Shown here in pieces: positions 18,067 to 21,725 of a DNA stretch of 64,000 bases. Every line of letters begins with the position of its first letter. Position 1 is the stretch's first letter. The DNA comes from an uncultured Nitrospira sp. (GTDB lineage Bacteria; Nitrospirota; Nitrospiria; Nitrospirales; Nitrospiraceae), in assembly GCA_902500775.1 (NCBI GenBank), contig CABVRZ010000008.1:1-64000 (forward strand), written 5' to 3'. Under the pieces are notes generated by a model. The model was not told the DNA's origin and searched no databases. It saw only the letters and a list, made by a program, of their open reading frames with translations. Both the position numbers and the translations under genes were made by a program.

Positions 18067-18423
18067 TTAGTGCTGCCCCGGTGCCTTGCCAAGAATGTGA
18101 ACACTTGGTCCATTTGACAGGGTGATCACTCGATCATCCTCCACTTCGCCTCCTAATATCCATTCAAACAATCGTTTCGCGTCGTTAAGCTCCGGATCTC
18201 TTGGAACGCCGTACTGCTCTTTCTGCATCGGTTCGTCATAGAGGCCAATACAGCCATGAGAAGCAAGGTAGCCTGGCAAGTCGCGACCGTGAATCCAGTA
18301 CGACACCCCTTCACGATTGATATGAAACCTGAGCGCATAGTTCATTGGATAGGGACGGTTCGTTCCTTCAACAGTATAGCGACAGGATTGATGGGCGCGG
18401 TGAACGGCGGTGAGGCGAAATTC
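18067..18423 (-). pseudogene. L,D-transpeptidase, 3' half (split by the IS1595 element)
   Basis: Encodes the C-terminal part of a YkuD-type L,D-transpeptidase, a periplasmic enzyme that makes 3-3 cross-links in peptidoglycan. Seen: the catalytic signature IHGRDLPGYLASHGCIG with the nucleophile Cys at 18252-18250 (about residue 207 of the rebuilt protein). It begins at the 8-bp target duplication (18416-18423) and has no start of its own. The 5' half is at 21271-21725. Removing the element and one duplication copy gives an uninterrupted 804-bp frame (267 aa). Confidence 0.9.
18416..18423. repeat. Target-site duplication, left copy
   Basis: CGAAATTC, identical to 21271-21278 on the other side of the element. 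Eight-bp duplications are typical of the IS1595 family. Confidence 0.92.
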
Positions 18424-18436
18424 GGCATTAATATAC

Positions 18437-18465
18437 TTGACTCATCATTACCATCCTGCTAGTAT
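18437..18465 (+). promoter_or_regulatory. Transposase promoter within the left end of the element
   Basis: TTGACT (18437-18442) and TAGTAT (18460-18465) are spaced by 17 bp, a sigma-70-like arrangement, 25 bp before the transposase start; the -35 lies within the terminal inverted repeat. A GGAGG follows 5 nt before the ATG. Confidence 0.55.
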
Positions 18466-18489
18466 TCTGGCGTCACAACGGAGGACGCC

Positions 18490-19422
18490 ATGAGTCAGAA
18501 CCTTCCCGCCACTCTTCAAGAAGCCATCCGATACTTTGCCGACCAGCAACGCTGCCAAGATCTCCTCTCGGCGATGCGCTGGCCTCAAGGCCCCGTGTGT
18601 CCACGGTGCAATTCCCTTAACCATGGCTATCTGAAATCTCGCAAGGTGTACCAGTGTAAAGACTGCCGCAAGCAATACACTGCCAAGCTCGGAACCATCT
18701 TTGAAGATAGCCCCTTACCCTTGGATAAGTGGTTCTGTGCGCTTTGGATGATCACCAGCGCCAAGAATGGCGTTTCCTCGTATGAAGTCCATCGCGCCTT
18801 GAAGGTCACTCAAAAGACTGCGTGGTTTATGTTGCATCGACTACGGCTAGCCCTACAGAAGGGTTCGATTGATCGGAAGCTCATGGGGGATGTCGAGGTA
18901 GATGAGACTTATATTGGCGGGCAAGCTCGCAATATGCACAAAGATAAACAGCTCAAAATGAAACGTGAAGAAGGTTTCTTTAGAAAAGCCGTCGTGATTG
19001 GGATGCTAGAGCGAAAGGGCGAAGTCCGAACTGCTGTGATCAATCGCGCTTCGGCTCAGCTCATTGAACAAGTCGTAAAAGATAACGTAGTTCCTGGGAG
19101 CAACCTCTACAGCGACCAGGCAAACGCCTACGCCAAAGTCGGAAAAGAATATGCGCATCAGGTCATCAATCACGCTGAAACTTACGTGAAAGGCAACGTG
19201 CACACCAACTGCATCGAGAGCTATTGGAGCCTATTGAAGCGCGGGATTAAAGGCACTTATGTGAGTGTCGAGCCGTTCCACCTGTTCCGATATTTGGATG
19301 AACAAGCCTTCCGGTTTAACGCTCGAAAGGACAACGATCAAGGACGATTTATGACTGCGCTCTCTCAGATCAGTGGGAAGCGTGTCCAATATAAGCAACT
19401 ACTTGGGCAATCATGGAATTAG
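18490..19422 (+). CDS. IS1595-family (ISXO2-like) transposase
   Basis: A 310-aa DDE-type transposase. Seen: an N-terminal zinc ribbon (C37, C40, C56, C59), a helix-turn-helix-like segment (SSYEVHRALKVTQKTAWFML) and the catalytic domain with D138 (VEVDETYIGG), D209 (LYSDQANAY) and the N240/E243 region of HTNCIESYWSLLK followed by GIKGTY. All motifs and a full length are present, so it should be active. It starts 66 bp inside the element. Confidence 0.96.
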   Translation: MSQNLPATLQEAIRYFADQQRCQDLLSAMRWPQGPVCPRCNSLNHGYLKSRKVYQCKDCRKQYTAKLGTIFEDSPLPLDKWFCALWMITSAKNGVSSYEVHRALKVTQKTAWFMLHRLRLALQKGSIDRKLMGDVEVDETYIGGQARNMHKDKQLKMKREEGFFRKAVVIGMLERKGEVRTAVINRASAQLIEQVVKDNVVPGSNLYSDQANAYAKVGKEYAHQVINHAETYVKGNVHTNCIESYWSLLKRGIKGTYVSVEPFHLFRYLDEQAFRFNARKDNDQGRFMTALSQISGKRVQYKQLLGQSWN

Positions 19423-19537
19423 CAAGTTTGGCGGATATAAAAGACAAGGGAAGGGGAAGCGCATAAAAGTAGTAAAGAATTGAGCAGGTAGAGAACCCTG
19501 AATATACTCTGATACAATGTGACCTTCTCACACTGTA

Positions 19538-19561
19538 ACGATCATTCTCCTTGATGATCGT
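19538..19561 (+). terminator. Hairpin after the transposase gene
   Basis: ACGATCAT (19538-19545) pairs with ATGATCGT (19554-19561) around an 8-nt loop, between the transposase stop and the passenger operon. It may end the transposase transcript, although no T-run follows. Confidence 0.45.
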
Positions 19562-19570
19562 CACAGCCTA

Positions 19571-19585
19571 ATACTATCTTAGTAT
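19571..19585. promoter_or_regulatory. Palindrome before the passenger operon
   Basis: ATACT (19571-19575) and AGTAT (19581-19585) form an inverted repeat 13 bp before the start of the first passenger gene, beside its GGGGAGG ribosome-binding site. An operator for autoregulation is possible; no regulator is recognised. Confidence 0.3.
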
Positions 19586-19598
19586 AGGGGAGGCTGTG

Positions 19599-20351
19599 AT
19601 GTCTAAGAAACCAAAGCCAGCAGAATATAAATTTAAAATCGACGCTTTTTCTCCACAAACCATCCCAATGGTTAGATTAGGAGAATATCTGTCTTCCTTG
19701 GCGAAGTTCCTAGGCGAGACAGGTATGGTTCATTTTGTTGATATGCGCCAAGGGAGTACCGTTTTATTGCACAAGATTCAGACGGAAGCTGTTCCTAAAG
19801 TCCAGGCAAGAATTGAGCGTGTTAGAAAGGGCATCGCTTCTATGGAGGAGATGAGACCATACGAAACCCTCAATGAAATGCTGCGAGAAGATAACGGTAT
19901 TGGTTTTTTACATGCTGGACGAGGAAAGATTCTGAAGTTTCCAGGGAGAGAATCTGAAGATAAATTGGACTACGGAGAATTCTATCAAGAAGGTTCCATT
20001 GACGGGATCCCAATATGGGTGGGTGGAACTCAAGAAGTTATCAATATTACGGTACAAGAAGGTAAGCGAACTTTTCGCTGCACCGCGAGTAAAGATATAG
20101 GCAGGAAAATAGCGGATCATTTGTGGTCTACCCCTTTAAGGTTTAGTGGCCGAGGGCGATGGAAGAGGAGCCATCATGGGGATTGGGAGCTTATGGTCCT
20201 TAAAGTTAATAGCTTCACACCTCTAAAAACGACCTCTCTCCAAGAAGTTGTGGGCGAATTGCGATCTATCCAAGGAAGTGAGTGGGCCACCATTAATGAC
20301 CCATGGGTAGAGTTGAGAAAGCTAAGGCAAGGGAATGGTGGCACTACCTAA
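19599..20351 (+). CDS. Unknown passenger protein paired with a PIN-domain protein
   Basis: A 250-aa soluble protein. The start at 19599 follows GGGGAGG. The N-terminal part (FKIDAFSPQTIPMVRLGEYLSSLAKFLGE, then VHFVDMRQGSTVLLHKI) has alternating strand and helix character with no catalytic motif I can name; the C-terminal part has beta segments (NITVQEGKRTFRCTAS, WELMVLKVNSF). No signal peptide or membrane helix. It ends with TAA immediately followed by the ATG of the PIN-domain gene, so the two are certainly co-transcribed and probably act together, for example as nuclease partner, antitoxin or specificity subunit. I do not recognise the family and assign no function. Confidence 0.72.
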   Translation: MSKKPKPAEYKFKIDAFSPQTIPMVRLGEYLSSLAKFLGETGMVHFVDMRQGSTVLLHKIQTEAVPKVQARIERVRKGIASMEEMRPYETLNEMLREDNGIGFLHAGRGKILKFPGRESEDKLDYGEFYQEGSIDGIPIWVGGTQEVINITVQEGKRTFRCTASKDIGRKIADHLWSTPLRFSGRGRWKRSHHGDWELMVLKVNSFTPLKTTSLQEVVGELRSIQGSEWATINDPWVELRKLRQGNGGTT

Positions 20352-20918
20352 ATGGTACTGTTTGACGCAACAATACTCCTGCTACTATTGCATCCAGATA
20401 CTAGCCCGCCAATTGACCCTGCAACAAAACTGCCGGTAACTAAAGCAAGAGAGCGCATTGATTTCCTAATTCATACACTCGGGGAAAGCGGATCAAAAAT
20501 TATTATCCCCACTCCTGTCTTGAGCGAAGTGCTTGTTTGGGCGGGGCGGGCTGGTAGTTCGTATATTCCAGTCATTGAGAGATCTGCTGTATTCCGTATA
20601 GAGCCTTTCGATACTCGTGCTGCTGTCGAGGTTGCATTATTAACAGCAAGCGCATTGAAAAGCGGGAATAAAAAAGGTTTATCTAAAGAACAGACATGGG
20701 CCAAGATAAAGTATGACCGTCAGATTATTGCCATTGCTAAGGTTGCGCATGTTTCTACGATTTACTCAGATGATGAATCTCTTAGTAAGCTCGCTCGATC
20801 CCATTCTATCTCCGTAATAAGGCTAGCTAGCTTACCCCTCCCTCAAGAAGATCAACAGATGGGCATTAACTGGGAATCAAAGGCAGGTGAAGATGAAGCA
20901 AGCCACAAAACCGATTGA
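20352..20918 (+). CDS. PIN-domain protein (putative metal-dependent ribonuclease)
   Basis: A 188-aa protein of the PIN fold. The acidic quartet expected of PIN nucleases is visible: D5 (LFDATILL), E59 (TPVLSEVLVW), D122 (IKYDRQIIAIA) and D140 (IYSDDESL), with the usual strand-helix order. PIN proteins cleave RNA and are common toxins of toxin-antitoxin pairs (VapC), but this one is longer than VapC and its partner is much larger than a VapB antitoxin. The start abuts the upstream stop codon with no gap; the 3' end overlaps a small ORF by 26 bp. Passenger gene of the IS1595 element. Activity is inferred from the motifs. Confidence 0.8.
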   Translation: MVLFDATILLLLLHPDTSPPIDPATKLPVTKARERIDFLIHTLGESGSKIIIPTPVLSEVLVWAGRAGSSYIPVIERSAVFRIEPFDTRAAVEVALLTASALKSGNKKGLSKEQTWAKIKYDRQIIAIAKVAHVSTIYSDDESLSKLARSHSISVIRLASLPLPQEDQQMGINWESKAGEDEASHKTD

Positions 20919-21036
20919 GATAATAGCCAAATCAAATCAAACGCCCTTCGACCGCTTCAAGGACGCCCTGTCTATCGTCGCATCGGTCCCGAGGTCCTCA
21001 CTTCCGAAATCCACGAAGAAGCCGAGAAAGAAGTAA
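20893..21036 (+). CDS. Small basic passenger ORF (47 aa)
   Basis: Reads MKQATKPIEIIAK and ends with a strongly basic tail (PKSTKKPRKK). It overlaps the PIN gene by 26 bp in another frame, with GGTGAAG before the ATG, and is followed after 1 bp by a second small ORF. Tight packing suggests translational coupling. Too short to assign; the basic tail could bind nucleic acid. Confidence 0.45.
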   Translation: MKQATKPIEIIAKSNQTPFDRFKDALSIVASVPRSSLPKSTKKPRKK

Positions 21037-21037
21037 C

Positions 21038-21196
21038 GTGAGGCTGATTACCTACCTGAGAAGCGAAGATGGGGAACCAACCACCCCAGAGCCCTGCGAA
21101 GATGACGGGTTGATCCATTGCAAGACGGTCTTTTCCAAAGACGGCAAGTCCAGTATTCATTTCTCTCTTCGCGTCCCCGAAAAACCGACCAAATAA
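21038..21196 (+). CDS. Small acidic passenger ORF (52 aa)
   Basis: Starts with GTG one base after the stop of the previous ORF, reads MRLITYLRSEDGEP, has two Cys (EPCEDD, IHCKTV) and ends in a beta-like segment (SSIHFSLRVPEKP). It ends 74 bp before the element's right end. No family recognised. Position and packing support expression as the last gene of the passenger operon. Confidence 0.42.
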   Translation: MRLITYLRSEDGEPTTPEPCEDDGLIHCKTVFSKDGKSSIHFSLRVPEKPTK

Positions 21197-21270
21197 GGAC
21201 CGCTAGAACCGAGAAAACTCTACGAGTTATCCACGATTTCGTATCGTGATGAGTGTGGTATATTAATGCC

Positions 21271-21278
21271 CGAAATTC
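21271..21278. repeat. Target-site duplication, right copy
   Basis: CGAAATTC, matching 18416-18423, directly after the right inverted repeat of the IS1595 element. Confidence 0.92.
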
Positions 21279-21725
21279 CCCTGTCGGCGTTTCATCCTGG
21301 CCATTCCCTGAAACAATCGGCACAGCAAATCGCAGAACGCCGTACTCGTAGGCACCCAGAAATTGCTCGGATAGATTGATAAGGATGAACCGTCTGTCTT
21401 GTTCCACTGCGAGATACAGCAACGGTAGCGGCGCGAAGTACTCCACGTCTTCGATTTGTTTCGGAATCTTGATCGACACCCCGGCATGGACATGGCGCCG
21501 GTCGATTCGATTGAACCGCGCGACACTGCTCCACCGCTCACCGAAAAGCGTTTCCAACGTTTCACCGGCACGAAGAGTCCAGCACTTCCATTCGATCGTC
21601 GCATCGCTTGGATATCGGATGTCGCATGGACTGTGATGTTTCTTGGGAAGTTCGGCATATGAAACGACGGGAAGGAGCACCAGCGCCGTGAGCAGGGAAC
21701 GGAGGATATGATATGGACGACGCAT
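21271..21725 (-). pseudogene. L,D-transpeptidase, 5' half (split by the IS1595 element)
   Basis: Carries a signal peptide (MRRPYHILRSLLTALVLLP, cleavage near SYAEL), a LysM-like region (LRAGETLETLFGERWSSVARFNRID) and the start of the YkuD domain up to DETPTGEFR, where the frame meets the insertion. Beyond this point the frame continues into the element for about 75 codons of unrelated sequence. The start at 21725 is chosen because it opens the signal peptide; the frame extends to 21791. The gene follows the CBS-domain gene on the same strand and was probably co-transcribed with it. Disruption should abolish 3-3 cross-linking by this enzyme. Confidence 0.88.

Follow-up and report, generated by a model that had tools for sequence, protein, structure and literature searches.

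An L,D-transpeptidase (ykuD) gene of an uncultured Nitrospira species is split in two by a stretch of DNA that carries a transposase gene together with further genes. This locus raises the question of what kind of element interrupts the gene, how it came to lie there, and which of its parts are fixed and which exchangeable. The window analyzed here is the whole of a 64,000-nucleotide stretch (contig CABVRZ010000008.1, positions 1 to 64,000), which had previously been described in a note made from the sequence alone; new relative to that note are the identity of the cargo, its apparent exchange, a conserved small ORF, and a +1-frame segment. The best explanation overall, which we regard as probable though some way from secure, is that a transporter IS of the IS1595 family inserted recently, that it joins a constant skeleton to a replaceable cargo, and that its present cargo is a toxin–antitoxin-like or defense gene pair.

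The Element and Its Insertion into ykuD

The element is complete, and its coordinates, 18424-21270, are exact. Its terminal inverted repeats, GGCATTAATATACTTGACTCATCA at 18424..18447 and the arm with which it pairs at 21247..21270 (both + strand), are 24 bp long and match at 21 of 24 positions (88% complementary); the left arm is the same end seen in the window element's lineage, and the right arm aligns among related elements. The 13-bp repeats of the earlier note are the perfect outer core of these arms, not their full length. Immediately outside lie the two identical copies of an 8-bp target duplication, CGAAATTC at 18416..18423, where it is also part of the downstream ykuD half, and at 21271..21278. 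A script that scores arms and duplications recovered the same ends, and by our own arithmetic 19 matches in 22 arm positions together with a perfect 8-bp duplication at such spacing would be expected by chance ~1e-7 times or less. Members of the IS1595 family have inverted repeats at their ends and usually duplicate 8 bp of the target (PMC8101967); the window element shows both features. A sigma-70-like sequence, TTGACT-17-TAGTAT (18437..18465, + strand), with its −35 box inside the inverted repeat, is a possible transposase promoter by consensus match only; a promoter and terminator scan was at background, the count of such sites included. An Rfam search of the element and its flanks gave no match.

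The two parts of ykuD lie on the − strand, the upstream half (residues 1-149) at 21279..21725 and the downstream half, with the SHGC motif, at 18067..18423, and each gives a partial YkuD match (0.0027 and 1.1e-6, respectively). Removal of the element and one duplication copy restores, as the earlier note had it, a single open frame of 804 bp (267 codons and a stop), in which the two partial domain matches are contiguous and the YkuD SHGC motif is present. Intact orthologs of the joined gene occur in ~20 genus-mates, and in five genus-mates the site is empty, with 398-400 bp of joined flank aligned gap-free at 81-90% identity. Of the neighboring genes, those of the CBS-domain and universal-stress (USP) types are kept in all five, and the dehydrogenase (ADH) neighbor is kept in the three whose fetched stretch covers it. 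Because the site is empty in these genus-mates, the direction of the event is insertion. An IS1595-family transporter IS would thus have inserted by transposition into the chromosomal ykuD gene, making the 8-bp duplication and inactivating the gene.

The undamaged ykuD halves fit a recent insertion, which the clean restoration of the frame had already suggested. The accompanying proposal, that a peptidoglycan cross-linking function was probably lost, stands for the split enzyme but not for the function as a whole: loss of the enzyme is likely, since neither half contains the complete YkuD domain, whereas two other complete YkuD genes remain on contig C25 of the same genome. The earlier note had also held that the lack of an identical or near-identical element elsewhere would refute its reading. 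Such an element is indeed lacking: in its own draft genome the element is a single copy, and the closest relatives reach 77-80% identity at the DNA level, over the transposase end, the small ORF, and the right end only. This absence does not refute the insertion reading, because the empty sites establish insertion independently.

The Transposase and a Segment beyond Its Stop

The transposase gene (18490..19422, + strand) is intact and encodes a 310-aa protein with a zinc ribbon and a DDE domain, which matches Pfam DDE_Tnp_IS1595 (7.8e-42), Pfam Zn_ribbon_IS1595 (8.2e-14), and the NCBIfam IS1595 model (2.3e-56), all above the cut-offs. The zinc ribbon is N-terminal, as in all IS1595 groups except IS1016 (PMC8101967). 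IS1595 elements that carry passenger genes are known as transporter IS, or tIS (PMC3129680, PMC5704250), and within the ends of the window element lie genes that are unrelated to transposition. The element is therefore an autonomous IS1595-family transposon of an already known kind, the transporter IS, and the earlier assignment to a complete IS1595-family element with passenger genes is borne out by the ends, the duplication, the family matches, and the cargo.

The IS1595 family usually has a single transposase gene (PMC8101967). In the window element, one main transposase frame is followed, past its stop, by a segment that is conserved at the protein level in the +1 frame. The open stretch overlaps and passes the stop (19355..19483, + strand), and comparison of seven elements revealed within it a block, GYKRQGKGKR (19433-19462, + strand), that is kept in all seven with the consensus (G/D)Y(K/R)RQ(G/R)(K/R)G(K/Q)R. 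Across the segment, differences among six sequences fall 15/21/84 by codon position; all 10 third positions vary, compared with 6 of the 20 others (p = 0.0003, a value that overstates independence because the seven sequences are related). Amino acid identity of the block is 0.80 in the +1 frame versus 0.37 and 0.39 in the other two. Collectively, this pattern suggests a candidate basic C-terminal tail of the transposase, for which a programmed +1 frameshift is the simplest reading, although no slippery site was recognized. A separate tiny overlapping gene, or an element acting at the DNA or RNA level, is a serious alternative that we rate at somewhat below an even chance. Short GTG starts in the +1 stretch of two relatives (G016 and G024) speak for a separate gene, as does a second IS1595 subgroup in which an ATG-started ORF overlaps the stop in another frame. 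However, the +1 open stretch mostly has no start codon, in one relative (G347) it has none at all, and five of the seven elements have the +1 frame closed 17-20 nt ahead of the stop of the transposase. The codon-position pattern, for its part, argues for a protein over a DNA- or RNA-level element. In the second subgroup (L102, L118, L120, L122, L123, L124, and L126), the overlapping ORF, MLSTPPxKRAxMKYQPKN, is conserved and uses the other alternative frame; its differences by codon position, 109/74/155, form a weaker pattern than that of the +1 segment.

A Conserved Small Basic ORF

A second short ORF came to light through the islands that align by blastn. It encodes 47 aa, TPFDRFKDALSIVASVPRSSLPKSTKKPRKK (20893..21036, + strand), ends in a lysine-rich tail, and is constant in the window element's lineage. 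Among five elements compared, its differences number 56/43/150 at codon positions 1/2/3 and, because third-position changes dominate, the codons identify it as a protein under constraint. When a profile of this ORF was run against the genomes of 197 relatives, eight matches were obtained at E <1e-3, and all eight lie in IS1595 elements. In six cases the element has both ends and an exact 8-bp duplication; the seventh, that of G347, has matching arms, and a duplication was looked for and none found; the eighth is a remnant that retains a single right end and, as read by eye, the 3′ part of a transposase frame. This remnant (L155:3000-4700, also of G347) is a decayed relative that consists of the transposase end only, a DUF3800-like gene, the small ORF, and one right end. 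Four of the weak matches (E >0.005) were fetched (L158-L161); they fall within unrelated genes, or on the strand opposite such genes, and were regarded as chance matches.

Of 17 elements examined, most have a small ORF with a K-rich tail, and simple shuffles yield one in 0-5% of trials; the window's second match and that of L061 coincide in part with other genes and were left out of the evidence. Another IS1595 subgroup (L101, L102, L120, L122, and L123) has a different small basic ORF, PKAKPISLHPLxFEEAI, also with a K-rich tail and near the cargo.

Cargo among Related Elements

Six further elements, with transposases 67-89% identical to that of the window, carry other cargo. The transposases of three of them, in the genus-mates G016, G024, and G038, are 87-89% identical, and those of the three more distant ones are 67-77% identical, G347 being at 67%. 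Alignment of the window element with those of the three genus-mates is confined to three islands, namely the first ~1040 bases, which hold the left end and the transposase, a stretch of ~60-100 bp with the small ORF, and the terminal 46 bp. Against G347, the alignment covers the transposase part and the small-ORF island but does not take in the right end. What lies between differs from element to element: a DUF3800-like gene and an aspartic protease gene in G016 (Pfam), two short genes in G024, the first of them HicB-like by eye, a 278-aa gene on the opposite strand in G038, a DUF3800 gene in G347 (Pfam), and DUF3800-like genes, by eye, in G283 and G198. In G198 the order also differs, with the small ORF preceding the cargo gene. 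The recurring DUF3800 cargos are 23-37% alike, whereas their transposases are 67-94% alike. A wider survey of 30 loci gave 15 with complete ends and exact duplications, 1.8-3.6 kb long and with widely varied cargo, C5-methyltransferase-like, KilA-N-like, and other genes by eye; this is not a complete count, because in the other 15 loci the criteria of the script recognized no combination of inverted repeat and duplication. In two IS1595 elements from genomes of the same order (L117 and L125), C5-DNA-methyltransferase-like and 806-aa restriction-modification-like genes were recognized by eye.

At the level of sequence, these comparisons show a constant skeleton in this lineage: the left repeat, transposase, and +1-frame basic segment, then the 47-aa small basic ORF, and finally the right repeat. 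The cargo between these parts appears to be exchanged like a cassette. Exchange would proceed by recombination within the conserved islands or by repeated capture; the elements compared showed neither a recombination junction nor an intermediate of exchange, and repeated independent capture by a bare ancestor could take the place of cargo replacement. A more specific proposal is that of a cassette-exchanging lineage, in which a fixed core, made up of a transposase that gains a basic tail by programmed +1 frameshifting, a conserved small basic protein, and the ends, receives interchangeable cargo, often of a conflict type, that is swapped by recurrent recombination. In this full form, the proposal is rather improbable.

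The OB-Fold and PIN Gene Pair

The cargo of the window element consists of two adjacent genes. The first (19599..20351, + strand) encodes a 250-aa protein of the phrog_19868 family (6.7e-39), and the second (20352..20918, + strand) a 188-aa PIN-domain RNase-like protein of the phrog_21691 family (8e-28). A second variable slot holds an open frame of 52 aa with a GTG start (21038..21196, + strand), of uncertain coding status and with no family match among Pfam, NCBIfam, PADLOC, or phrog profiles. The structural model of the 250-aa protein (pLDDT 78, pTM 0.44) has an N-terminal alpha/beta part and a C-terminal OB-fold (residues 128-210) that resembles single-strand-binding proteins (Z ~9.5). This protein found no useful match in PADLOC, NCBIfam, or Pfam, and its model, compared with viral structure models, gave matches of two kinds only, generic ones to OB-folds and weak ones over the whole length; a sequence search of solved structures with profiles of both proteins likewise gave nothing useful. 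The match of the second protein to Pfam PIN (0.006) is below the cut-off; its model resembles VapC toxins, and the acidic residues D5, E59, D122, and D141 are invariant in the PIN alignment. A relationship of the PIN protein to protein-only RNase P was considered and rejected, what they share being the generic PIN fold only.

The PIN gene lies directly 3′ of the 250-aa gene in all 22 loci that have both (plasmids, phages, and whole genomes were searched), a count that includes one locus with the PIN frame broken in two (L027) and one weak, short pair (L060). Four of these loci are IS1595 elements that carry the pair in the same order: the window element and those of Rhodanobacter sp. B04 (L026), G109 (L025/L061), and G1077 (L056). 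Ends and exact 8-bp duplications were found by script in three of the four; for the G1077 element, both were identified by eye, the duplication being TTTTTTTT, a homopolymer and as such weak evidence. The remaining 18 copies have no adjoining IS1595 transposase; standalone copies are plasmid-borne or, in the case of Pseudomonas phage Ostro, immediately follow a CI-like repressor. In the host's phylum the pair is rare (1 of 396 genomes drawn, G109 having surfaced in a separate draw), and viral contigs scanned with the window, Rhodanobacter, and L048 proteins contained no relatives. Trees of the module are compatible with either one or several captures by IS1595 elements. On Sinorhizobium plasmids, the PIN gene is matched in two pieces in strains K101 and C101 (NZ_CP104131.1 and NZ_CP104135.1), likely through a frameshift, and in one piece in strain M103 (NZ_CP104127.1).

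From the gene pairing, the mobile-element context, and the predicted folds, the pair is most likely a toxin–antitoxin-like or phage-defense module. The PIN protein would cut RNA, and its OB-fold partner would bind nucleic acid and thereby control or target it; such a module would favor retention of the element by the host. The window element might instead be an ordinary transporter IS that captures adjoining genes, with the pair a chance passenger functionless for the element and the small ORF unimportant. IS1595 elements with passengers are known (PMC3129680, PMC5704250), and the diversity of cargo elsewhere, from C5-methyltransferase-like and KilA-N-like genes (by eye) to aspartic protease and DUF3800 genes (Pfam), is in keeping with this. 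Two observations make it unlikely, though not markedly so: the same pair occurs in the same order in four IS1595 elements whose transposases share as little as 38% identity, and the small ORF, which bears the marks of protein-level constraint, was found in IS1595 elements only. That the pair is not a toxin or defense module but serves transposition directly, for example by binding nucleic acid or by processing the RNA message of the transposase, is very improbable, even with a modeled OB-fold of the single-strand-binding type and a place immediately behind the transposase in four elements, given that most copies of the pair do not adjoin an IS1595 transposase and most related elements do not have it.

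Discussion

The elements most like that of the window are tISCpe8 and MTnSag1, mobilizable elements, one of which carries lincomycin resistance, and which likewise have an IS1595 transposase, inverted repeats of ~25 bp, a target duplication, and passengers (PMC5704250). The window element differs from them in its PIN/OB pair, its conserved small basic ORF, its +1-frame segment, and the different cargo of its near relatives. The pair itself is reminiscent of VapBC: a PIN protein with conserved acidic residues and a VapC-like fold is encoded by one of two adjacent genes, and the partner gene comes first. However, the partner, at 250 aa and with a predicted OB-fold, is unlike the short DNA-binding antitoxins known as VapB, and it matches no antitoxin family. 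PADLOC 2.0.0 gave no match among 5027 models at E 1 or less, a search that an undescribed system could still escape. Tn3-family transposons carry toxin–antitoxin modules, including PIN toxins, beside their transposition genes; they differ from the window element in both the transposase family and the partner protein. In the literature consulted, which leaves aside the founding IS1595 paper, no report was found that connects IS1595 with a PIN module, with a conserved small ORF, or with frameshifting.

The functional readings of the module and of the tail rest on comparison, and the genome is a draft assembly. Within this frame, the presence of the OB-fold/PIN pair in four IS1595 elements and beside a phage repressor points to a toxin–antitoxin-like or defense module that matched no described system. 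Moreover, the set of near relatives separates the core of the element from its exchangeable parts and brings to light two short coding segments that could readily escape gene calling. Transporter IS elements such as this one blur the line between insertion sequence and transposon.
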